Assembly (NCBI GenBank): GCA_949297775.1
Contig: CASFTM010000004.1
Coordinates: forward strand, 1 to 64,000
Source of the DNA: an uncultured bacterium
GTDB taxonomy: Bacteria; Elusimicrobiota; Elusimicrobia; Elusimicrobiales; Elusimicrobiaceae
DNA length: 64,000 nucleotides
Direction of reading: 5' to 3'
The notes under the pieces are model-generated. The model did no database searches. It had not been told where the DNA came from and saw only the letters and a list, made by a program, of their open reading frames with translations. Shown piece by piece: positions 3,947-64,000 of the stretch. The stretch's first letter is position 1. Each line of letters begins with the position of its first letter. The position numbers and the translations under genes are program-made.

Positions 3947-5380
3947 ATGAATTCCTTATTTAAAATCTGCATTTTTTCCAGTTGTTTGCTCATATCTGCC
4001 TCCGCGGCAGCGCAAGTGCCTGTTAAAAATCTGCCCCAGTTGGCTAAGGCTTCTTTCACAGCTTCTAAAATTATCCAAGGGCCCGTACTATCGGCCTCTC
4101 AACGTAAATTACTGCAAGTAAATTTTAACGCACTGGAAGAGGCTCGCCGGGCGCTTTATCAAAATTCCGGGTGGGTTCTGTCTTCCAATTTTCAAAAAAC
4201 AGCCAAACAGCTGGGGCAATTAGGGCTGTCTATGCCGCCGGCGCCGAAACCCACAGCCTCTGCCCAGGAAAAGGAAAACTACCGTAAGGAAATCGCCACT
4301 ATTTTATATCGCGAAAGTTCCGCTTTGGGAAAAATCCTGGACATAAAGCCCCGCCCCCAAACGCCCCAAGACGCTTTATCCTGGAACCGGGAACAATTTT
4401 TCCGCAGCCAAGCACTCTCCCGTCACGCCTGGGCCAAAGTCCTGCAACAAAAGAGCCCCGTCCTTAAATGGGGAACCCCTAACTGGGACGAAGTGCGCGT
4501 ATTGCCTTTGCCTTTGTCGGAAAATCCAAAGAGCGCACTCTATATTCCTTCGGAAACGCTGCAAAAAATGACCGAAAAAGCCGAACAGTCCCTCAGTGAA
4601 TTATACGACAGCATCTTACAGGAAAAGACCTTATCTTTTTTCCAAAAACAAACCTTGATTACCGCCATTAACGACGCCAACTCCCTGCTGACTTACGATT
4701 TTGTACGTCTGTATATGTATACCTTCGGGCAAATCCCGGTCGTTGTATATGATGCGGGCCTTCGGACCCCGAAGCCGCAGGACTCTCTGCACCGATATGC
4801 TGTAGAACTGCAACAACGCCTGATAGACAAGCTGGAGCAAAGCGGAGCCTGGACACCGGAAGATTTTGAACTTTTTGTTCAATCGTCCGTTTATTTGCCT
4901 CCCCAGCAGGCCCAGGCCGTCCTGGGAGCTGTAACCTATTTGGAACCGCGGGCCGCCTCCTGGCTGCTTACCCACCCAGTGGATGACCCCACTTCCCAAA
5001 AGCTGATAGCAAAAATCAATTGGCTGCGTTCGCAGAAGGATCTTATTTGGTCGGATGGGAAAATACTGCCAAAAATGAACCCGGGCAAAGATTTTGACCA
5101 ACTGGAATACGAGCGGGCCCGCGCCCTGCACGCCCAATGGACGGTATTATACAACCGCCTCAAAAAATTATTGGATAAGCAAGAGCAAATCGTGGAAGCC
5201 GCTAAAAGGCTTAAAGAGGCGCCGGCAGCCCCTAACAGTTCCCCGGAACAGGTCGTTTTAGATGCATCTTCCCGCATACGGGTATATGCTCAAAAAGCCC
5301 GGCTGCAGCGGGTCATTGATGAAACGCAAAACACGATGCAGCAAATCCGGCAGGAGCTGTCGGACCTATGGCGCGAGTAA
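3947..5380 (+). CDS. Exported protein of unknown function, paralogue 1 of a tandem pair
   Basis: A 477-residue protein with a clear Sec signal peptide (MNSLFKICIFSSCLLISASAAAQ, cleavage near residue 22) and no later membrane segment, so it is probably periplasmic or secreted. The mature part is helical, with Gln/Leu/Lys-rich stretches and a predicted coiled coil near the C-terminus. It is clearly homologous to the next gene: shared stretches include LEEARRALYQN, KPRPQTP, WGTPNWDEV, LPPQQAQAVLGAVTYLEP and DGKILPK. I do not recognise a named domain. An AAGAGGAGAAAAG ribosome site precedes the ATG. The pair sits alone between convergent and divergent neighbours, which gives no functional hint. 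Confidence 0.85.
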   Translation: MNSLFKICIFSSCLLISASAAAQVPVKNLPQLAKASFTASKIIQGPVLSASQRKLLQVNFNALEEARRALYQNSGWVLSSNFQKTAKQLGQLGLSMPPAPKPTASAQEKENYRKEIATILYRESSALGKILDIKPRPQTPQDALSWNREQFFRSQALSRHAWAKVLQQKSPVLKWGTPNWDEVRVLPLPLSENPKSALYIPSETLQKMTEKAEQSLSELYDSILQEKTLSFFQKQTLITAINDANSLLTYDFVRLYMYTFGQIPVVVYDAGLRTPKPQDSLHRYAVELQQRLIDKLEQSGAWTPEDFELFVQSSVYLPPQQAQAVLGAVTYLEPRAASWLLTHPVDDPTSQKLIAKINWLRSQKDLIWSDGKILPKMNPGKDFDQLEYERARALHAQWTVLYNRLKKLLDKQEQIVEAAKRLKEAPAAPNSSPEQVVLDASSRIRVYAQKARLQRVIDETQNTMQQIRQELSDLWRE

Positions 5381-5453: not shown

Positions 5454-6872
5454 ATGTCTGGAAATATCCGTTTATTCCTGTTGGGGGCGTGTTTGCTCTC
5501 TGCGGGGAACGCTTTCGCACAAAACCAAGCCAAAACCCTTTCCCAGTTATTAAAAGTTTCTTTTACCGCTCCCAAAAATATCGCAGCCAACCATTTGTCC
5601 ACAGAACAGATAAGAATGCTGCAGTCCAATTATACCGCTTTGGAAGAAACCCGCCGCGCCCTATACCAAAACCCGGGGTGGGCAGTTTCGGCCGCGTTTA
5701 AACCGGTAAACGAAAACCTGCGGGTGTTGGGTATGCCATTGCCCGCCCATATTTCAGAGGAGGCAACCCGGGCCGAAAAGGAACGCTACCGAAAAGATCT
5801 AGATGACTTACTGTATCAGGAAAGCCTGACGCTGGGGCAGATTCTGGACCAAAAGCCCCGTCCCCAAACGCCGGCAGAGCGTTTAAACTGGAGTTCCCAC
5901 TTTTCCCAGCGGCAAGCGTCTTCGCCCTTGATATGGAACGCTTGGGTGTATACGCATCCCTCCGCCACCTGGGGAACCCGCAACTGGGATGAAGTATTTG
6001 TAAAGCCCTTTATTTTTCCTTCTAATCCTGCCAGCCCGAAATATGTCCCTCCGGAGGAACTGACTGAGCTTCTTGCTAAAGAAATGCTCCCCCAGTATGA
6101 CTTATACAGCTATATCTTAAGCCGCAAAAAACTTTCTCTCCAGCAAAAGCAGTTGCTCATTGCGTTGCTGGACGAAGCGGCTGCCGCTACTTCTTATCCC
6201 TTTGTGCAAAAGTATATGATGTCCTTCCGGGCTATACCTTCCGTCTATTCCAGTTTAGGCCGCCTGCCGCGCCACGATAAAAACCGGTTGGAAGATTTCG
6301 CCGTTACCCTGCAAAAAAACCTCATCCGCAAATTACAGGAAAAAGGAAAATGGAAGCAGTCCGATTTTGAAATGTTTGCCGAAGCGTCCATTTACCTCCC
6401 CCCGGAAAAAGCAAAAGCCGTTTTTGCCGCTGTTACTTATCTGGAACCCAAGGCCGCCCTTTGGCTGTTGGACCACCCGCTGAATAACCCAACCTCCCAG
6501 CATCTTCTGCAAGAAATCCAAAAGGTTCGGGCAAACAAAAAAAATCTGTGGCAGGATGGGAAAATACTGCCCAAAGCGGAAACAATGGTAAATTTAAAAC
6601 GGCTGAACTTTCTGCGGTTACAGGCAATGAATGCCTATTTCACGGTGTTGACAGAACGTTTAAACAGACTGATGGAGATAGAATACAGCGTCACTTACTC
6701 GCTGCAATTGATGAATGATCCAAACCGAATATCACAGGAAAACGATATACAAGCGGTTCTTTCCAGCAGAATTTACCTCTCCGCCAACCAAGCCCGGCTG
6801 CGCACTCTTATCAACCAAATAGAGTTACGCTTGGAAAAGCTGGGAACAGAAATGGATAACGAACTTCCTTAA
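5454..6872 (+). CDS. Exported protein of unknown function, paralogue 2 of a tandem pair
   Basis: A 472-residue protein with a signal peptide (MSGNIRLFLLGACLLSAGNAFAQ). It is collinear with the gene 74 bp upstream. Equivalent stretches include LEETRRALYQNPGW, KPRPQTPAERLNW, WGTRNWDEVFVKP, LPPEKAKAVFAAVTYLEPKA and the DGKILPK motif. Both copies keep the same spacing and length, which points to an old tandem duplication with both genes maintained. The AAAGGAG ribosome site lies 7 bp before the ATG. The gene ends at a strong terminator, so the two genes probably form one transcript. No enzyme motif is seen; a structural or binding role at the envelope is only a guess. Confidence 0.85.
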   Translation: MSGNIRLFLLGACLLSAGNAFAQNQAKTLSQLLKVSFTAPKNIAANHLSTEQIRMLQSNYTALEETRRALYQNPGWAVSAAFKPVNENLRVLGMPLPAHISEEATRAEKERYRKDLDDLLYQESLTLGQILDQKPRPQTPAERLNWSSHFSQRQASSPLIWNAWVYTHPSATWGTRNWDEVFVKPFIFPSNPASPKYVPPEELTELLAKEMLPQYDLYSYILSRKKLSLQQKQLLIALLDEAAAATSYPFVQKYMMSFRAIPSVYSSLGRLPRHDKNRLEDFAVTLQKNLIRKLQEKGKWKQSDFEMFAEASIYLPPEKAKAVFAAVTYLEPKAALWLLDHPLNNPTSQHLLQEIQKVRANKKNLWQDGKILPKAETMVNLKRLNFLRLQAMNAYFTVLTERLNRLMEIEYSVTYSLQLMNDPNRISQENDIQAVLSSRIYLSANQARLRTLINQIELRLEKLGTEMDNELP

Positions 6873-24506: not shown

Positions 24507-25352
24507 ATGCGTAAATTTACACAATTTTTCGGTACCCTATTTATTTCTTTATTGAGCCTTGCGTGTGCCCAACAAGACCCACTTTATAAAGCAATTGAGA
24601 CGGGAAATATACAACAAGTAACTCAGTTAGTTTCTAATGGGGCAGATGTAAATAAACTGTTACCCAATAAGGCAACTCCTTTAATTGTGACAAGTGAATT
24701 GGGATATACAGAAATTGTCAAAACATTATTACAACAAGGGGCAAATCCGAACATTCCAGACAGTCAGGGTGTTTCTCCTCTAATCATATCCAGTCAAAAT
24801 GGACATATTGAAATTGTTAAGTTATTACTAAGCTATGGAGCCGATGTGAATGCGGCTACTAAAACGGGGGCTACAGCTCTTATGCTCGCTAGTGATCATG
24901 GATATGTGGAAATAGTAAAATCATTGCTTGCACATCAAGCCAACATTAATGCTCAAAATGAATGGGGGGAAAGCGTTTTGTTAGGAGCTGTTTTACATAA
25001 TCAAAGCACTGTTGTTTCTATATTATTGGCCCACGGCGCGAATCCTAATCTTACTGCAAAAAACGGAGCAAGCCCCTTATTAATTGCTACAGAAACAGAG
25101 GGGATAAAACTCGATATAATTAGAGAGTTAATACAAGCTGGCTCTATAGTTAATGATCCTTCGCTAGACGGAGTCACCCCTTTAATGATGGCTTGCGATA
25201 GAGGAAATGCAAAAATTGTAAAGTTATTACTTGAAAACGGAGCTAATGTCAATGTGAGAGATAATAATCAATGGACTCCGTTGAAAATTGCCGTTCATCG
25301 TGGTTTTATGGAAATTGCTAATTTACTCCAACAAGCCGGGGCCAAAGAATAA
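24507..25352 (+). CDS. Exported ankyrin-repeat protein
   Basis: A 281-residue protein with a signal peptide ending in ACA-QQ (type I cleavage near residue 21; the lone Cys is a poor lipobox). About eight ankyrin repeats follow from residue 27 to the end, each with the pattern G..PL..A...G..EIVK.LL..GA..N. Ankyrin arrays bind proteins, so it is probably a periplasmic or secreted binding protein; the partner is unknown. The gene is markedly more AT-rich than its neighbours and is bracketed by the duplicated tRNA-Asp 3' end, which suggests that it arrived by insertion. A TATAAT lies at 24474 upstream; the ribosome site (TAGGAAAAATT) is modest. Confidence 0.88.
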   Translation: MRKFTQFFGTLFISLLSLACAQQDPLYKAIETGNIQQVTQLVSNGADVNKLLPNKATPLIVTSELGYTEIVKTLLQQGANPNIPDSQGVSPLIISSQNGHIEIVKLLLSYGADVNAATKTGATALMLASDHGYVEIVKSLLAHQANINAQNEWGESVLLGAVLHNQSTVVSILLAHGANPNLTAKNGASPLLIATETEGIKLDIIRELIQAGSIVNDPSLDGVTPLMMACDRGNAKIVKLLLENGANVNVRDNNQWTPLKIAVHRGFMEIANLLQQAGAKE

Positions 25353-31466: not shown

Positions 31467-32687
31467 TCAGTACGCCGCCGGAAGCGGGTCATACGCGCGT
31501 CCATTCTGGAAAATTCTTTTTCCTTCACGCCGGGCCGGACGGACCAGGCGTTCTTCCGTTTCGTTCCACCGGCGGAAAGGATAGGCATACAGCAAGGTAT
31601 CATCCATGCGGAACCAAGAGAGCCATTTTTCCAAGGGAACCGGTTCAGCGGACAGGAAAGGGTCCAACACTACCGGGGTGTATTGCCCGTTGCGGCCAAT
31701 CACCACCAACACTGCTTCGTGGTAATACCACGCCGGATATTCCGTACCGTCCGGTGCGTGGAACGCAGCCGCTTGAGCCGGCTGTAAAAATTCTCCATAT
31801 CGTGGATGTACCTGCAACTGATACAGGCGCACATGCCGGCGGCCGACAGGGGCCACAGTACCCAGCTGACGGCAAATGCGGGCACAGCTTAAATATGAGC
31901 AGGCGGCACATTCTTTTGCCGCCGGTCGGTACAAGTATTGGGTTCCCCGCTGCAAAGCATAAGCCGAAGCTTGGTGCATAATAGCCAAATCAATGCCGTC
32001 CACCTCGTAAAGCAGAACTTTTTGGCGGCTTTCCTGGGTGGTTTGCCGTTGGACTTGGCCCAACCACGCCAAATCCTGCTTTGTAACGGCACTTTTCCAG
32101 CGGGCAGGCTCCAAGGCATATCCGGCGCGTTCCGGACTTTCGGCACTGTTGACCAACGCACGCAAGAAACGTAATTCCACTGCATCGTTGCGCGGATCTT
32201 TCACCTCATAGGAAAGAAGATGGGCTTGTTCAAAAAAGCGTTTCAGCCAAGTTTTAATTTCGGGCTTGTTATGTTGGTAAAAAGTCTCCACCCCGCGCAA
32301 ATCAAACCGTTCGTCCAATCGTTCCAACGCGTCCAACGCTCCCAGGTAATTAACCGTCAGCCTCGAAGGAATTTCCCCTCCGTACGCAGCAGAAGAAATA
32401 TACATTTGGTACAAATAAAACGCCACGGTACGCTGCTTGTTGGCATCCGAAAAAGACTTATACAGCCGGGTCCAAAACCCGTCGTGCCAGGCAGACTCTT
32501 GGGAAGGGAAATACAGCCGCATCCAATTCAACCGGTTCATACCGGGGTTTTGGCGCACCGTATTTTTTTGCTGCAAGGTCTGCGTCAAGCGGGATAAAAA
32601 GGGCGAGCTCCCCCCTTGCGCCGCCACGGGACAAACGCACGCCAAACAAATACACAACACAACTCCGAAACGCATTCTACCCTTCAT
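31467..32687 (-). CDS. Exported protein with a protein-glutaminase-like Cys-His-Asp signature
   Basis: A 406-residue protein with a signal peptide (cleavage near VAAQ, residue 24). The first 240 residues are helical and unrecognised. The C-terminal part has CARICRQLG (Cys268), AWYYHEAVLVV (His323) and VVLDPFLSAEPVPLEKW (Asp342). That order and spacing resemble the papain-like protein-glutamine glutaminase domain, which removes the amide from protein glutamine side chains. This is recognition by eye, so the enzyme role is inference. A second in-frame ATG at 32675 is an alternative start. The stop codon abuts that of the convergent Omp85-like gene. Confidence 0.6.
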   Translation of the reverse strand: MKGRMRFGVVLCICLACVCPVAAQGGSSPFLSRLTQTLQQKNTVRQNPGMNRLNWMRLYFPSQESAWHDGFWTRLYKSFSDANKQRTVAFYLYQMYISSAAYGGEIPSRLTVNYLGALDALERLDERFDLRGVETFYQHNKPEIKTWLKRFFEQAHLLSYEVKDPRNDAVELRFLRALVNSAESPERAGYALEPARWKSAVTKQDLAWLGQVQRQTTQESRQKVLLYEVDGIDLAIMHQASAYALQRGTQYLYRPAAKECAACSYLSCARICRQLGTVAPVGRRHVRLYQLQVHPRYGEFLQPAQAAAFHAPDGTEYPAWYYHEAVLVVIGRNGQYTPVVLDPFLSAEPVPLEKWLSWFRMDDTLLYAYPFRRWNETEERLVRPARREGKRIFQNGRAYDPLPAAY

Positions 32688-57240: not shown

Positions 57241-59124
57241 TTACGCTCCCGTTACCACGGCTCCAAATTTACAGGTGCTCTTGCACCCGCCGCACTTGAT
57301 ACATTTTTTGGGGTCAATGTGATGCGGTTTGCCCACTTCGCCGCTGATGGCGGAAACGGGGCAGGCGCGTTTACACATACCGCAGCCTTTGCACTTGCTG
57401 GGGACGATTTCAAACCGGGCCAGCGCCTTGCATACGCCGGCGGGGCAACATTTGTCCACCACGTGCGCCAAGTATTCCTCCCGGAAGTGCTTGAGGGTGG
57501 ACAGCACCGGGTTCGGCGCCGTTTTGCCTAACGCACACAGGGAAGCTTTCTGGACGGCTTTGGCTAAATCTTCCAAATTTTCCAACGTTTTAAGCGTGGC
57601 GCGGCCTTCCACAATGTCGTTTAACATGGTCAACATCTGTTCGGTGCCTTCGCGGCAGGGAACGCATTTTCCGCACGATTCGCGCTGGGTAAATTCCAAA
57701 AAGAAACGGGCCACGTTCACCATACACGTCTTGTTGTTCATCACCACAAGGCCGCCGGAACCGACCATAGCGCCTGCGGATTTTAACGAATCAAAATCCA
57801 GCGGCAAATCCAAATGTTCGCGTGTGAGGCATCCGCCCGAAGGACCGCCGATTTGGGCCGCTTTAAAGGCCGCTTTGTTGACGCTGCCGTCATCATTGGT
57901 GGTACCGCCGGCCACCTCATCAATCACCTGGCGCAGCGTAGTGCCCATCGGCACTTCCACCAGGCCCGTGTTGGCAATGTGGCCCGTAACGGCAAATGTT
58001 TTGGTGCCCGGGCTGCCCAAGGTGCCGATTTTGCGGAATTCTTCCGCCCCCATTTCCATAATTTTCGGAACGGTAGCCAATGTTTCAACGTTATTGATTA
58101 CCGTCGGCTTGCCAAACAAACCGCACTGGCTGGGGAACGGCGGTTTGATTTTGGGCATACCGCGCTTGCCTTCCACGGACGCAATTAAAGCTGTTTCTTC
58201 GCCGCAGACAAACGCCCCCGCGCCTTCCATTACGTTAATTTTAAAATTGAGTCCGGAGCCAAAGACATTTTCCCCCAAAATTCCCAATTCTTCGGCTTGT
58301 TTGATAGCGGTGCGCACACGCTGGATGGCCAGCGGATATTCCATACGCACATAAATATAGCCTTCATCGGCGCCGATAGCGCGCGCGGCAATCATCATCC
58401 CTTCCAAGACGGCGTTGGGATTGCCTTCCATTACGCTGCGGTCCATAAAAGCGCCCGGATCGCCCTCATCGGCATTGCAGATGACGTATTTTTTGGGGCC
58501 CGGTTCCACGCGGGTTAAATCCCATTTTTTGCCCGTGGGGAACCCGCCGCCGCCGCGCCCGCGCAGGCCGGAGTGGATGAGTTCTTTGCAGACTTCTTCG
58601 TCCGTCATTTCCGTAAAAGCGCGTTTGGCCTGTGCATAACCGCCGTGGGCAATGTATTCGTTGATGTCTTCGGGGTTAATGCGCCCGCAATCGTGCAACA
58701 AAATGCGTTCTTGCTTGGCGTAAAAGGGGATATCCGCCACCGTTTTGGCTTTTTGGTTATTGGCGGGATTGTGGTAGAGCAGGCGGTCAATTACTTCGCC
58801 TTTGATAAGCGTCTTTTCCACAATTTCCGGTACATCTTCGGGTTTTACTTTGGTGTAAAAAATGTCCCCCACACTGACCAGCGGTCCCATCGCGCAAAAA
58901 CCGCGGCAGCCGGAAAGGCTTAAATAATTTTCGTGGCAATCTTTGGTAATTTGCAGGCAAAAACCGATTTTGCGTTTTTCCATTTCCCGTTGGAACGCCT
59001 CGTATACTTTTAAGGAACCGCCGGCAATACAGCCCGTCCCGCCGCAAATGACCACGCGGCCGGTAATTTTTTTGTAAGCGTCGTTATAATCTTTGGCGAT
59101 TTTTTCAATATTCTTAGTCGGCAT
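57241..59124 (-). CDS. hydB: NuoF-like NAD(H)-binding subunit of the bifurcating hydrogenase
   Basis: A 627-residue flavoprotein. It begins with a thioredoxin-like [2Fe-2S] domain (about 1-110), then the NuoF core with the NADH/FMN loops GLRGRGGGGFPTGKKW and CNADEGDPGAFMDRS, and the cluster cysteines ESCGKCVPCREGT. The C-terminus adds a two-[4Fe-4S] domain (CKGCGMCKRACPV and CIKCGGCKSTCKF). This layout is diagnostic for HydB of Thermotoga-type bifurcating hydrogenases. The start at 59124 (MPTKNIEKI) follows GGAGG and overlaps hydC by 11 bp; upstream in-frame starts lack such a site. Confidence 0.94.
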   Translation of the reverse strand: MPTKNIEKIAKDYNDAYKKITGRVVICGGTGCIAGGSLKVYEAFQREMEKRKIGFCLQITKDCHENYLSLSGCRGFCAMGPLVSVGDIFYTKVKPEDVPEIVEKTLIKGEVIDRLLYHNPANNQKAKTVADIPFYAKQERILLHDCGRINPEDINEYIAHGGYAQAKRAFTEMTDEEVCKELIHSGLRGRGGGGFPTGKKWDLTRVEPGPKKYVICNADEGDPGAFMDRSVMEGNPNAVLEGMMIAARAIGADEGYIYVRMEYPLAIQRVRTAIKQAEELGILGENVFGSGLNFKINVMEGAGAFVCGEETALIASVEGKRGMPKIKPPFPSQCGLFGKPTVINNVETLATVPKIMEMGAEEFRKIGTLGSPGTKTFAVTGHIANTGLVEVPMGTTLRQVIDEVAGGTTNDDGSVNKAAFKAAQIGGPSGGCLTREHLDLPLDFDSLKSAGAMVGSGGLVVMNNKTCMVNVARFFLEFTQRESCGKCVPCREGTEQMLTMLNDIVEGRATLKTLENLEDLAKAVQKASLCALGKTAPNPVLSTLKHFREEYLAHVVDKCCPAGVCKALARFEIVPSKCKGCGMCKRACPVSAISGEVGKPHHIDPKKCIKCGGCKSTCKFGAVVTGA

Positions 59125-59599
59125 TTTTGGCCTCCGAAGCGATAACGGAATCAATAATTTCAACGGCTTTTGCCGGGGTAATCTGCCCGTGGACCACATC
59201 GTCCATCACCATCACGGGCGCCAGCCCGCACGCCCCCAGGCAGGACACGCATTCCAGCGTAAACATCATATCGTCGGTAGTATCTTGCCCGTCTTTGAGT
59301 TTTAATTTATCTTTTACTGTATTAATTACAAACGAGGAACCTTTTACGTGGCAGGCAGTCCCGTTGCAAACTTTGATAATATGCTTGCCTTTGGGCGTAA
59401 TGGCAAAGTGGGCAAAGAAGGTGGCTACACCAAACACTTTGGCAGGAGAAATTTCCAATTCATTGGCAATAAAACGCATAATATCTTCGGGAAGGTACTG
59501 GTATTCATCTTGCACTTTTTGCAGAATGGGGATTAATTTGGCACTGTCGTACTGGTGGTCTTCCAGGATTTTTGCGGCGGGAGCAAATCTGTCGGTCAT
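59114..59599 (-). CDS. hydC: NuoE-like [2Fe-2S] subunit of the bifurcating hydrogenase
   Basis: A 161-residue NuoE/HydC protein: an N-terminal helical bundle, then a thioredoxin-like [2Fe-2S] domain with cysteines in VCNGTACHVKGS and CVSCLGACGLAPVM. It passes electrons between NADH and the other subunits. The start at 59599 follows AAGGAG, and the far upstream readings are rejected. It is the first gene of the hydCBA operon behind a consensus promoter, and it overlaps hydB by 11 bp. Confidence 0.93.
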   Translation of the reverse strand: MTDRFAPAAKILEDHQYDSAKLIPILQKVQDEYQYLPEDIMRFIANELEISPAKVFGVATFFAHFAITPKGKHIIKVCNGTACHVKGSSFVINTVKDKLKLKDGQDTTDDMMFTLECVSCLGACGLAPVMVMDDVVHGQITPAKAVEIIDSVIASEAKNAD

Positions 59600-59712
59600 A
59601 CTTTCTCCTTTCTCCAAACGGTAATAAAATGCGCGGCACGCAAACGACGCGCGCCTGTACAGCAAAGAACAATTGTAATTTGAAATACTTTAAGCCAGGA
59701 ACTTCTTTTCTT

Positions 59713-59809: not shown

Positions 59810-60967
59810 CTATCTTTTCCAACCGTGCAAATTCCGGTAATAAAAGTAATTAGACAGCCTTTTCATCATCTGCACCGGCCATTCTTTTCCATATTCAAAC
59901 CCTTCCCTTTGGGAAATCATTCCGTCAAAGCCTTTGTCAAACATCGCCTGGCCGAGTTTTTTCTGCTCCCCATAAGATGAAAGGGCAATAATCACACCGT
60001 TAAACCCATTTTCCCGCAGCATAGCCGTTACATAATAACCGCCGCCGCCCGGCACGATAATATCACACAAAATGACATCAAATTGTTCTCCTTGCTTCGT
60101 CACCGCCCGCAGCAATTCTTCGGCATTGTTAAAGGTGGACACACTCCACCCCGGGAAGAACATTCCTGCTTGGTTTAATTGTTGCATTGTTTTCAACAAG
60201 CTTTCCCGGTCGTTCAACACCGCAAGCCGCAGCCCTTTGGGCAGATTGCGGGACGCTTGATACACCTGCACCCGGGGAGGGAGCTTGGCCAACAGCGCTT
60301 CCGTGCGGCTGGTACGCGGAGCACGCATAAAAAACTCATTTTCTTCAAAAGTACGGTCAGAGCGATGCAACACTTGCCCGGTAAACACTCCGCGCATCAT
60401 CGGGCTGACTGTTTCCGCCGCATAGGCCAGATATTCCCGAGCGGCTTTATAGGCGGGCTCTTCGGCATCAATCAAGTTGCGCAATTTAGCCAATTTCGTG
60501 TGCATTTGGGTAATTTTTTCCATATATACCGCGCGCTCTGCACTGGATAAATTATGCCGTTCAGACGCTTTGCTTTGGTAATATAAGAAGATATTCATCT
60601 CTTCTTTAAATTTTTCAAAAGAGCGCATCACGCTTAGATACGTCCACGCCGCCTGCGCCCATTGGTCTGAAGTCGGGTTTACAATTAAAAGCGGAAGCTG
60701 GTCTACGGGGGTAGATGCAACTTTGGGCAAAATGTATCTTTCTAAATTAACATTTTGTTTAAAAACCGGTTTTTTGCTGCCGGGCAGGATTTTTCCCTGT
60801 ACGGTGCGCGCATACCGCAAGGCCTGCGGCACGGCAGCCGGTTGGGAAACGCTTTTCTTCCAAATTTGTTTGACTCCGCCTTTTCCGGAAAATTCTTTCA
60901 ACAGGTTTTTTTGGGCGGCACACGGCAGGGACACACACAACGCCAGCAAGATAACAAACCCTTTCAT
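59810..60967 (-). CDS. Exported protein with C-terminal receiver-like domain, paralogue 1
   Basis: A 385-residue protein. A signal peptide (cleavage near PCAAQ, residue 18) is followed by a conserved N-terminal segment (VQGKILPG, then LERYIL), a helical middle region (SFEKFKEEMNIFLYYQSKASE and EYLAYAAETVSP), and a receiver-like alpha/beta domain (about 255-370): VLNDRESLL, the Asp in FDVILCDIIVPGGGG, and IIALSSYGE. The usual KP lysine is absent. It ends NYFYYRNLHGWKR. A receiver domain outside the cytoplasm is very unusual, because it could not be phosphorylated by cytoplasmic kinases. The start at 60967 follows AAGGAG. It is the last of three tandem homologues. Confidence 0.82.
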   Translation of the reverse strand: MKGFVILLALCVSLPCAAQKNLLKEFSGKGGVKQIWKKSVSQPAAVPQALRYARTVQGKILPGSKKPVFKQNVNLERYILPKVASTPVDQLPLLIVNPTSDQWAQAAWTYLSVMRSFEKFKEEMNIFLYYQSKASERHNLSSAERAVYMEKITQMHTKLAKLRNLIDAEEPAYKAAREYLAYAAETVSPMMRGVFTGQVLHRSDRTFEENEFFMRAPRTSRTEALLAKLPPRVQVYQASRNLPKGLRLAVLNDRESLLKTMQQLNQAGMFFPGWSVSTFNNAEELLRAVTKQGEQFDVILCDIIVPGGGGYYVTAMLRENGFNGVIIALSSYGEQKKLGQAMFDKGFDGMISQREGFEYGKEWPVQMMKRLSNYFYYRNLHGWKR

Positions 60968-61027
60968 ATAAGCTCCTTTAGGCAAATGGATTTCCTATAT
61001 ATAGAATAACAGTTGCATCAGGCGCCA

Positions 61028-61070
61028 ACAAGGGTCAAAAGTCCCACCGCGGACTGGGCCTGGACCTATC
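61028..61070. promoter_or_regulatory. Motif upstream of receiver-type gene 1
   Basis: AACAAGGGTCAAAAGTCCC ... TGGGCCTGGACCTATC, 60-105 bp upstream of the gene 1 start. It is shared with 63547-63590. Role unknown. Confidence 0.45.
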
Positions 61071-61107
61071 TGCGGCCAATATACCCTGTGCTCTACAGGA
61101 GAAAATT

Positions 61108-62286
61108 TTATCTTTTCCAATGATTTAAACTGCGGTAATAGAAATAATTGCTGATTCTGTCCATCAACTCAATCGGCCAGTGGGAACCGTATTCAAATTC
61201 AAACGGAGCCAATATCAATCCGTCAAAGCCTAGGGAAAACATCCTTTTACCTGTTTGGGATTGTTCCGGCAACGCTGCTAAAGCGATAATTGTTCCTTGG
61301 AAGCCTCTGCTGCGCAGTACACCTGTTAAATAAAACCCGCCCCCGCCCGGAACAAAAATATCGGTAAAAATCATATCAAAGTGTTTTTCGTGGGCATATA
61401 TATCCCGGAAAAATTCTTCCATACTGTCGTAATAGGAAATATCCCACCCAGGGAAGAAAGCCCCCGCCTGCTGGAAGGTCTGCATCCGCTGCAACACACT
61501 GGGCCGGTCATTAAGCACCGCCAGTTTTAGTTTTCCCGGCAAGTGCCGTGCAATCTGATGAGCCTGTTCCTGTATGGAAAGATTTCTTATTTCCGCCAAC
61601 AAATTCCGTCCCGCTGGATTGCGCATAAAAAACTCTTCCTGCACATAGGTCCGGTCCTGCCGTTGGTAGGCGTCGTGCACGAACATTCCCCGCAACACCG
61701 GGGAGACCGTCTCCGCCGCGTAGGCAATATATTCCAGCGCCGCTTTGTACGCCGGATCCTGTGGGGAAATAAAGGGTTTCAGCTTAAGCAACTGGTTATA
61801 CATTTCCCCAATTTTCTGCATCCATTCCGCTTGTTCTCCGGCCGCCAGGGGGCGTCTTTCGCTGGCTTTGCTTTGGTAATACAAAAACACATCCATTTCC
61901 CGCTTAAAAGCTTCAAAGGAACGCATCATATAGTCATACATCGCTTTGGCTTGGATGTATTGCGCTTCGGTTGGTTCATTAAGCAGGCTTTCTCCTTCCG
62001 GGCGAACATGCCGGAAGATATACCGCTCTATGTTGGCGGTGGTTTTGTTCAAGGGGCGGGGACCGCCGGGCAAAATTTTACCCTGTACCACGCGCGCATT
62101 ACGTAAAATTTCGGGGATCTTCTTTCCGCTCAGATTGGAAATAGCCGGCTGTGCCAGCGCTTTGTTGAGCGTTCCTTGGCCCATAAACTCCTTAGCCAAA
62201 TTTTTTTGGGCTGCACAGGGGCGCGCTGCCCCTACCGTCCCCAACAACAAAAGGCCTGCCAAAATGTTGCACCACTGTTTATTCAT
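61108..62286 (-). CDS. Exported protein with C-terminal receiver-like domain, paralogue 2
   Basis: A 392-residue homologue of the genes on either side. The signal peptide ends near PCAAQ (about residue 27). Conserved points are VVQGKILPGG, NIERYIFRH, SFEAFKREMDVFLYYQSKASE, EYIAYAAETVSPVLRG, VLNDRPSVL, the Asp in FDMIFTDIFVPGGGGFYLTG, IIALAAL (no Ser/Thr, unlike paralogue 1) and the end NYFYYRSLNHWKR. The receiver lacks both the Thr/Ser switch and the KP lysine, so phosphorylation seems unlikely even if the Asp is kept. I start at the ATG at 62286; the alternative GTG at 62307 is less likely. Confidence 0.82.
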   Translation of the reverse strand: MNKQWCNILAGLLLLGTVGAARPCAAQKNLAKEFMGQGTLNKALAQPAISNLSGKKIPEILRNARVVQGKILPGGPRPLNKTTANIERYIFRHVRPEGESLLNEPTEAQYIQAKAMYDYMMRSFEAFKREMDVFLYYQSKASERRPLAAGEQAEWMQKIGEMYNQLLKLKPFISPQDPAYKAALEYIAYAAETVSPVLRGMFVHDAYQRQDRTYVQEEFFMRNPAGRNLLAEIRNLSIQEQAHQIARHLPGKLKLAVLNDRPSVLQRMQTFQQAGAFFPGWDISYYDSMEEFFRDIYAHEKHFDMIFTDIFVPGGGGFYLTGVLRSRGFQGTIIALAALPEQSQTGKRMFSLGFDGLILAPFEFEYGSHWPIELMDRISNYFYYRSLNHWKR

Positions 62287-62337
62287 AAACTGCCATTTGC
62301 CCCGCACATACCGGTTCCGTTAACGGTGTATTGCCGT

Positions 62338-63477
62338 TTAGCGTTTCCAACCGTTGGTATCGCGGTAATAAAAATAGCTTTGCAGATTTTTCATAATCTG
62401 CAACGGCCAATGACTGCCGTTTTCAAACATCATCGGCATAGATATCATTCCGTCAAACCCCATATCAAACAACCGCTTGCCCATTTTATTTTCTTCTTCA
62501 AAAGCGGCCAAAGCGATAATAACGCCGGAAAACCCTTTTTTACGCAATTCACCGGTTAAATAGCAGCCGCCGCCGCCCGGTACAATAATGTCAGTCAAAA
62601 TTACATCAAATTTTTTTCCGGCGTGCGTCACATCATACAGCAAAGCGGCCGTGTCTTCATAATACGCTATGTCCCAGCCCGGCAAGAATTTTCCGCTCAA
62701 ATGCATTTGCCGCATGCGGGCAATAACGGACCAACGGTCGTTTAAGACTGCCATTTTAAGGCCAGGCGGCAGCTTTTCGGCCACCTGCCTCACCCGCACA
62801 GCCCCGGGAAGCAAACCTTTCCAAGAAGCATCCTGATTAGCCTTAGGCGTATGCAGAAAAAATTCCACCCCGCGGTATTTTCTGTCCGCGCGTTGGTCCA
62901 GGCTTTTCAGCCACATTCCGCGCATTGTCGGGCTGACGAGTTCCGCCGCATACGCCACATATTCCTGTGCGGCGCGGTAGGCCGGATCCGCGGATGATAT
63001 GACTGTTTTTAGCGAGGACAACTTTCCATTCATCCGGCTGATTTTTCCCATTAATTCCGCTTTCTCCACCGCGGACAGGGTGCGTTTTTCATCCTCTTTG
63101 CTTTGGTAGTACAAAAAAACATCCATTTCCTTCTTAAAATTCTGAAAGCTTTCCATTACTTGGTGGTATTCCGTTAATGCCTTTCTCATTTGGGCGGCGG
63201 TAGGCTCCTCCAAAAGCGTAATGCCCCGCAGCCGGGGGGTTGAGAAAATATAACGCTCTATTTCCGCCACTCCCTTGGACAACATAGGTTTCCCGCCCGG
63301 CAAAATTTTGCCTTGTACCACCCGGCAGGGAATACGGGCTTGACGGGCGGCCTGCGAAGAAAGCTGTTCCGCCGAGCGTTTTACACCTATTTGGGTAAGT
63401 TCCTGGATGATCCGGTGCTGCTGTGCGGCGCACGGATACGCCACACTAAACGACAATAACAAAAAGATCCATTTCAT
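62338..63477 (-). CDS. Exported protein with C-terminal receiver-like domain, paralogue 3
   Basis: A 379-residue homologue, first in the array on the minus strand. The signal peptide is short (MKWIFLLLSFSVAYPCAAQ). Conserved points are RVVQGKILPGG, EIERYIF, SFQNFKKEMDVFLYYQSKEDE, EYVAYAAELVSPTMRG, VLNDRWSVI, the Asp in FDVILTDIIVPGGGGCYLTG, IIALAAF and the end SYFYYRDTNGWKR. It is separated from paralogue 2 by 51 bp with no clear terminator, so they may be one transcript. The start has a good AAGGAG site. No function is known for any of the three. Confidence 0.82.
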   Translation of the reverse strand: MKWIFLLLSFSVAYPCAAQQHRIIQELTQIGVKRSAEQLSSQAARQARIPCRVVQGKILPGGKPMLSKGVAEIERYIFSTPRLRGITLLEEPTAAQMRKALTEYHQVMESFQNFKKEMDVFLYYQSKEDEKRTLSAVEKAELMGKISRMNGKLSSLKTVISSADPAYRAAQEYVAYAAELVSPTMRGMWLKSLDQRADRKYRGVEFFLHTPKANQDASWKGLLPGAVRVRQVAEKLPPGLKMAVLNDRWSVIARMRQMHLSGKFLPGWDIAYYEDTAALLYDVTHAGKKFDVILTDIIVPGGGGCYLTGELRKKGFSGVIIALAAFEEENKMGKRLFDMGFDGMISMPMMFENGSHWPLQIMKNLQSYFYYRDTNGWKR

Positions 63478-63546: not shown

Positions 63547-63590
63547 ACAAGGGTCAAAGGGCCTAAAAACAATTGGGCCCGGACCTATCA
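63547..63590. promoter_or_regulatory. Motif upstream of receiver-type gene 3
   Basis: ACAAGGGTCAAAGGGCC ... TTGGGCCCGGACCTATC, 70-115 bp upstream of the gene 3 start. Same start and end words as at 61028. Confidence 0.45.
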
Positions 63591-64000
63591 GAGAAAAACG
63601 GAAAGGACTAAAAAATAACCCGCCATCAAGGTAAGGCCGGTCGGGACGGCAACAGCCGCCCATTCGCGGCTTTTAATGCCCAGTTTTTCAGCAGCAACGA
63701 TGTTGGGCAAATTGCCCTGCACCAGCATACTGCCAAAAGCCGCCAAACCAATGACCATATACACCAAGTCCTTTGACGAAATGGTCGGCACAATTTCAAT
63801 AGCGGCCAGCGTGGCGTTGTCAATAATAACCGAAACGGCATTTGCCAAAAACAATACTTTCCCGCCTAAATGCGTAATCGTGCTCTGGGCCAGCGGACGC
63901 AGCCCCGTGCTGATTAAGTTAAGCGCCGCCACGAACATATAGATATGCCAGGTGCGCCGCAGCATAGAGGCGTAAGTTTCTTTATCTTCGCGGATGTGCA
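63588..64000 (-). CDS. DUF1646-like permease, C-terminal part (cut by window end)
   Basis: The reading frame is open to the end of the window, so the start lies beyond it; about 137 residues are visible. They contain several membrane helices with ANAVSVIIDNATLAAIEI, GSMLVQGNLPNIVAAEKLGI and SREWAAVAVPTGLTLMAG, which match the DUF1646 family of predicted ion (possibly sodium/proton-type) transporters, with its Asp-Asn and Gly-Asn motifs. The in-frame ATG at 63965 is internal, since matching residues (ETYAS) continue upstream of it. Substrate unknown. Confidence 0.8.
   Translation of the reverse strand, partial: HIREDKETYASMLRRTWHIYMFVAALNLISTGLRPLAQSTITHLGGKVLFLANAVSVIIDNATLAAIEIVPTISSKDLVYMVIGLAAFGSMLVQGNLPNIVAAEKLGIKSREWAAVAVPTGLTLMAGYFLVLSVFL

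Follow-up and report, generated by a model that had tools for sequence, protein, structure and literature searches.

Introduction

Receiver (REC) domains, among the commonest in bacteria, are viewed as phospho-switches of the cytoplasm. A canonical, catalytic receiver needs five active-site residues, referred to here as DD1, DD2 (the metal-binding Asp), D (the phospho-acceptor Asp), T (Thr or Ser) and K (Lys), and a REC without any one of them is by published definition a pseudo-receiver (Bourret et al. 2025, PMC12632262). Among the published pseudo-receivers of PF00072, DD2 is non-acidic in about 80% and DD1 in about 20%, and the role of the pocket without phosphotransfer is an open question; that review nowhere uses the terms periplasm, extracellular or signal peptide. 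Aspartate-less receivers (ALRs), which have lost the phospho-acceptor Asp, are likewise atypical RECs unable to work as a normal switch, and no exported examples are mentioned in their description (PMC4395418). In the open-access literature searched we found no exported or periplasmic receiver domains. Here we analyse three tandem genes, W1, W2 and W3, at the end of a 64,000-nucleotide stretch (the window) of contig CASFTM010000004.1 from an uncultured bacterium of the gut Elusimicrobiota. Their products are predicted to be Sec-exported and to end in a pseudo-receiver whose pattern of residue loss is the opposite of the usual one.

Results

Three tandem genes encode proteins with a predicted C-terminal receiver domain

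The genes lie on the minus strand in the array order W3 (62341..63477, 379 amino acids), W2 (61111..62307, 399 amino acids from a GTG) and W1 (59813..60985, 391 amino acids from a TTG), separated by gaps of 33 bp (W3-W2) and 125 bp (W2-W1). The corresponding open reading frames (62338-63477, 61108-62307 and 59810-60985) agree with the initial annotation of this DNA. Translation of W1 and W2 likely begins at internal ATG codons, at residue 7 of W1, which gives the signal peptide MKGFVILLALCVSLPCAA ahead of a Gln, and at residue 8 of W2, which gives MNKQWCN... at the N-terminus. Alignment shows the three proteins to be about 48% identical along their whole length (W2 and W3 47-48% to W1). They have in common the motifs VQGKILPG, PCAAQ, VLNDR, FDxIxxDIxVPGGGG and a YFYYR...WKR end, as the initial annotation had recognized; its account of three tandem genes is correct but overlooked a fourth, distant paralogue (a 483-aa open frame) on a different contig of the source genome (G000:C6). 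A broad profile search recovered 118 distinct family sequences. In each of the three proteins the signal peptide is followed by a variable N-terminal stretch, then by a helical domain (about 130 residues) and finally by the REC. Matches of the helical domain to PspB are weak (E 0.005-0.009, below the cut-off).

The assignment of the C-terminal domain to the (beta-alpha)5 receiver fold is secure on the combined evidence of profile matches and structural models. W1 matches PF00072 with an E-value of 8.5e-9, above the Pfam cut-off, W2 (6e-5) and W3 (5.9e-6) fall just below it, and 36 of 37 diverse family members scanned match at E<=0.01. When the family profile was compared with receivers in the PDB, the best match was a designed receiver-like protein (3.7e-16), followed by natural receivers at 7e-13. 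An AlphaFold model of the full mature W1, computed from an alignment with seven relatives and with alignments drawn from the window and from loci L006 and L007, contains five beta-alpha units in receiver order with pLDDT block means of 73-89 in this region, and the W2 REC modelled alone reaches a pLDDT of 84 and a pTM of 0.80. The best Foldseek matches of the W1 and W2 models in the PDB are RECs, with target TM scores up to 0.77-0.78, and one fold match is to the REC of KdpE in a Ca2+-bound structure (1zh2). The CheY-like domain proposed in the initial annotation is thus borne out, and an unrelated fold is not what the models predict.

The pocket keeps both aspartates and has lost the lysine

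Active-site landmarks were taken from PMC12632262, and their assignment fits the positions at which strands end in the W1 model. In W1 the REC domain and C-terminal tail (59813..60238, minus strand) hold N258 D259 as the DD pair, D308 as D, S336 at the T position and Q359 at the K position. The equivalent residues are N266 D267, D316, A344 and A367 in W2 (61111..61536, minus strand) and N246 D247, D296, A324 and M347 in W3 (62341..62766, minus strand). The initial annotation had read these losses exactly, Lys in all three and Thr/Ser in two, but it missed the family-wide invariance of both pocket aspartates, and its view that the acidic pocket had been abandoned does not stand. Across the family alignment DD2 and D are Asp in 118/118 sequences and the T position is Ser or Thr in 106; what has gone is the Lys, present in a single sequence, and DD1, which is Asn in 105 and acidic in none. 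With K and DD1 absent the domain is a pseudo-receiver by definition as judged from the alignment, and with the phospho-acceptor Asp invariant it is not an ALR. The retention of DD2, D and Ser/Thr indicates that the geometry of the metal site is strongly constrained.

Only five columns are fully invariant (W1 numbering): the pocket pair D259 (DD2) and D308 (D), R324 in alpha3, and G352 and D354 of a GxD before beta5. The VPGGGG motif, singled out in the initial annotation, is an ordinary beta3-alpha3 loop, its Pro lying at the D+4 Pro and its last Gly at the D+8 Gly of usual RECs (D+8 is Gly in 97 of the 118).

This residue pattern bears on whether the domains could be true phospho-acceptors, modified either after delivery to a donor-containing compartment such as another cell or by some extracytoplasmic donor. 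The universal Asp pair with Ser/Thr in most members would suit such a role, and phosphorylation can survive substitutions at DD, T or K (PMC12632262). We nevertheless regard it as improbable, given that 117 of 118 members have lost the Lys, that DD1 is non-acidic throughout and that W2 and W3 also lack the Ser/Thr. No kinase is encoded at the window locus. The sole kinase neighbour found is an orphan histidine kinase gene (L038:6936-7970, G000:C6) at one orthologous locus, convergent with the fourth paralogue; the two stay neighbours in eight loci of different genomes. As this kinase is convergent and of cytoplasmic type, two-component pairing was rejected as the main explanation.

N-terminal features point to Sec-dependent export

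Signal peptides are predicted at the N-terminus of W1 (MKGFVILLALCVSLPCAA, 60914..60967), W2 (MNKQWCNILAGLLLLGTVGAARPCAA, 62209..62286) and W3 (MKWIFLLLSFSVAYPCAA, 63424..63477), all on the minus strand and each followed by Gln at the cleavage site; direct reading of the PCAAQ site reveals no lipobox in any of them. Nearly all of the 112 complete N-termini in the family show a positively charged start with Lys or Arg, a short hydrophobic core and a small-x-Ala cleavage site, usually followed by Gln, in line with what Sec export demands of the n-region, h-region and cleavage site. Among 111 scored sites, Ala occupies -1 in 106 and Gln +1 in 88. A stricter home-made signal-peptide rule is passed by 98/112 members; the rule is permissive, since 26/55 open reading frames of the window also pass, several with the same A/Q site (the slash marking cleavage), so that export is better supported by the persistence of this pattern in members that have diverged. 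The charge, core and A-x-A/Q pattern of the relatives thus upholds the earlier proposal of signal peptides, and these sequence features show W1-W3 and their relatives as predicted Sec-exported proteins with a cleaved signal peptide.

The converse reading, in which the proteins remain cytoplasmic and the hydrophobic N-terminus is an inverted anchor or a misread start, is highly improbable: positive n-regions, short h-regions and A-x-A/Q are conserved across 118 diverged members, and the A/Q site recurs in other signal-peptide proteins of the window. The cytoplasmic location of a response regulator is accordingly not what the N-termini of nearly all complete members predict.

The receiver closes exported proteins of very different size

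The module of helical domain and REC is C-terminal in essentially all members, whatever their length (349-2170 aa). Seven genomes of the genus have giant proteins that end in it; these measure about 1830-2170 aa, and a contig end truncates one of them (1887 aa). Whole genus giants gave no Pfam match at E<=0.01, and their domains surfaced only when pieces were scanned. One then matched a caspase-like domain (NF047832, 7e-9), with His and Cys motifs common to the aligned copies. Caspase-like domains lie at residues 925-1110 and 1490-1700 of the giant from L049, the second copy having altered motif residues, and at residues 1170-1380 of that from L150. Sister-genus giants carry the receiver about 60 residues from the C-terminal end and lack the YFYYR-type tail; one of them, a predicted exported protein of 2354 aa (L160:3113-10174, minus strand), contains two Trypsin_2 domains (5.7e-9 and 5.9e-13) ahead of a receiver that keeps both pocket aspartates. 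Stretches of this protein look kinase-like or ADP-ribosyltransferase-like by eye and gave no family match. The trypsin-like domains of the module-bearing giants weakly resemble HtrA-type and MarP proteases, which is consistent with an extracytoplasmic location.

A common C-terminal module on otherwise different exported proteins recalls the C-terminal sorting domains of type IX secretion, by analogy only, as the fold here is that of CheY and a sorting role is putative. The module with its NYFYYR..GW.R tail might accordingly be a sorting or attachment signal for an undescribed outer-membrane or cell-surface export machine. Its position at the extreme C-terminus of proteins with unrelated upstream regions, the protease-type domains upstream on the giants and the conservation of the tail (Tyr at the NYF position in 101/117, Trp in 91/95 aligned tails) speak for this possibility, which we consider unlikely: many members are hardly more than signal peptide plus module and leave little to sort, a signal of 300 aa would be a large one, and the sister-genus giants continue for about 60 residues past the REC without the tail. 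The fusion of the REC to caspase-like or trypsin-like giants would also fit a regulator or inhibitor of exported enzymes, with the small three-domain members as decoys, inhibitors or partners of the giants. This seems doubtful, as small members occur without giants; the N-terminal 1851 aa of a giant found nothing as a query in genomes G000, G020 and G011.

Purifying selection is strongest on the receiver

Ratios of non-synonymous to synonymous substitution (dN/dS) were determined by the Nei-Gojobori method, with dS near saturation in many pairs. In pairs with measurable synonymous change dN/dS is lowest in the REC, at about 0.03-0.15; the helical part has values of about 0.1-0.2 and the N-terminal part of about 0.15-0.3. 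Purifying selection thus acts on the family and is strongest on the REC. Diversifying selection on the REC was rejected, dN/dS being far below 1 in the measurable pairs (dS is saturated for many), and the suggestion that the tandem copies reflect selection for diversity is not supported, as the REC is the most conserved part of the proteins. Copy number and N-termini do vary among members.

The family is confined to one bacterial family and varies at a fixed site

Relatives occur in 43 of the 66 genomes of the genus and, outside it, in two genomes from a sister genus of the same bacterial family, each with a single giant protein. A profile search of 340 genomes of the phylum (E<=1e-15) returned no relatives beyond these, and a scan of 84,980 species genomes, which uses short conserved peptides and may miss distant relatives, returned just two related loci. 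On these searches the receiver family does not extend beyond one bacterial family of the gut Elusimicrobiota, as the expectation of a lineage-restricted family had it.

The array is flanked by a DUF1646 transporter gene (63588..63998, minus strand; PF07854, 1.4e-34), of which the window holds the C-terminal part and which continues beyond the window end, and by a hydrogenase operon whose first gene (NuoE-like, 59114..59665, minus strand) forms the other boundary, as the open reading frames and the neighbours at family loci indicate. Loci of this DUF1646-hydrogenase type hold 58 of the 118 members, and the DUF1646 gene is found in 23 family loci. In seven of eight checked genomes without the family the DUF1646 and hydrogenase genes are directly adjacent, so that the site is fixed and the array itself is either present there or absent. 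Comparison of species gives mostly 90-98% identity for the flanking proteins and mostly 45-57% for the best array matches; array copies diverge fast and are gained or lost at this site. In a tree computed with FastTree only, W1 groups with one copy from genome G020 and W3 lies near another, and the W1/W3 split therefore seems, from these sequences, to predate the species. A conserved Ala/Lys-rich protein, predicted to be exported and starting ...ADDCGC...CINNCTLSK (L006:2713-3342, minus strand, and equivalents), adjoins DUF1646 and is present also in genomes without the receiver array.

A search for a partner through recurrent neighbours was set aside, as only locus-specific ones recur (hydrogenase/DUF1646, the orphan kinase and others). 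Pilin-like genes recur at 29 family loci, a large part of which would be expected from gene density, the source genome having about 90 prepilin matches. The motif matched is PF07963 (prepilin N-methylation), and for the 1.69 Mb of G000 these matches represent an unusually large pilin-like repertoire.

The window encodes further proteins with predicted export signals. A 406-aa protein with an A/Q signal peptide (31467-32687, minus strand) matches PF18626 (Gln_deamidase_2, glutaminase; 5.3e-7) and has Cys and His motifs. An ankyrin-repeat protein (24507-25352, plus strand) with an N-terminal hydrophobic segment ending ...SLACAQQ is a possible lipoprotein. An adjacent pair of about 475 aa each (3947-5380 and 5454-6872, plus strand), 40% identical and with A/Q cleavage sites, has no Pfam match.

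Discussion

The family members share with canonical RECs, including the Ca2+-bound KdpE domain, the predicted fold, DD2, D, mostly the Ser/Thr and the D+8 Gly. In contrast to them they have lost Lys and DD1, are predicted to be exported, carry the REC C-terminal to a helical domain and have neither effector domain nor partner kinase. Like the pseudo-receivers reviewed by Bourret et al. (PMC12632262) they combine a REC fold with active-site loss, yet in this family no DD1 is acidic and every DD2 is, and unlike ALRs (PMC4395418) they keep the phospho-acceptor Asp invariant.

We propose, at even confidence, that the family comprises exported, non-phosphorylated, cation-binding pseudo-receivers that serve as C-terminal docking modules. 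The REC keeps the Asp residues that would hold a divalent cation and accept phosphate, with the Lys gone and the first acidic residue replaced by Asn. No phosphodonor is expected outside the cytoplasm, neither a histidine kinase nor an acyl-phosphate donor in the periplasm or extracellular space, which supports the initial annotation in seeing no plausible route to aspartyl phosphorylation there. Because of this, and because the Lys is lost, the pocket may have been retained as a structural site for Ca2+/Mg2+, locking the REC in one state. The helical domain and REC together would then be a module for docking onto, or attachment to, a partner protein or a surface, and since giant exported proteins with protease-type domains end in this module too, it may position or attach whatever stands upstream. 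Re-use of the fold for binding or interaction is the most likely interpretation of the family.

Several points weigh against this proposal. Export is read from sequence features; cation binding and a docking partner are putative; the Ser/Thr kept together with both Asp also fits a phospho-accepting REC; and no gene neighbour is common to all family loci, so none emerges as a partner gene. Export signals, residue pattern, constraint, predicted fold, restriction to the family and C-terminal placement are results of the analysis on which the proposal builds, and cation binding, absence of phosphorylation and docking are what we infer from them. A broader idea, that extracytoplasmic receivers form a class in which the conserved Asp pocket acts as a cation- or phosphate-responsive switch controlling or targeting exported enzymes, would make this the first extracytoplasmic use of a receiver; we judge it speculative and rather unlikely.

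A large, constrained exported family that has kept the Asp and dropped the Lys would offer a natural experiment on what the receiver pocket does without phosphotransfer. It also carries a warning for annotation, as a PF00072 match in this family is unlikely to denote a regulator of transcription or chemotaxis. In the gut Elusimicrobiota, bacteria whose host-facing biology is little known, the family marks an exported repertoire specific to the lineage.

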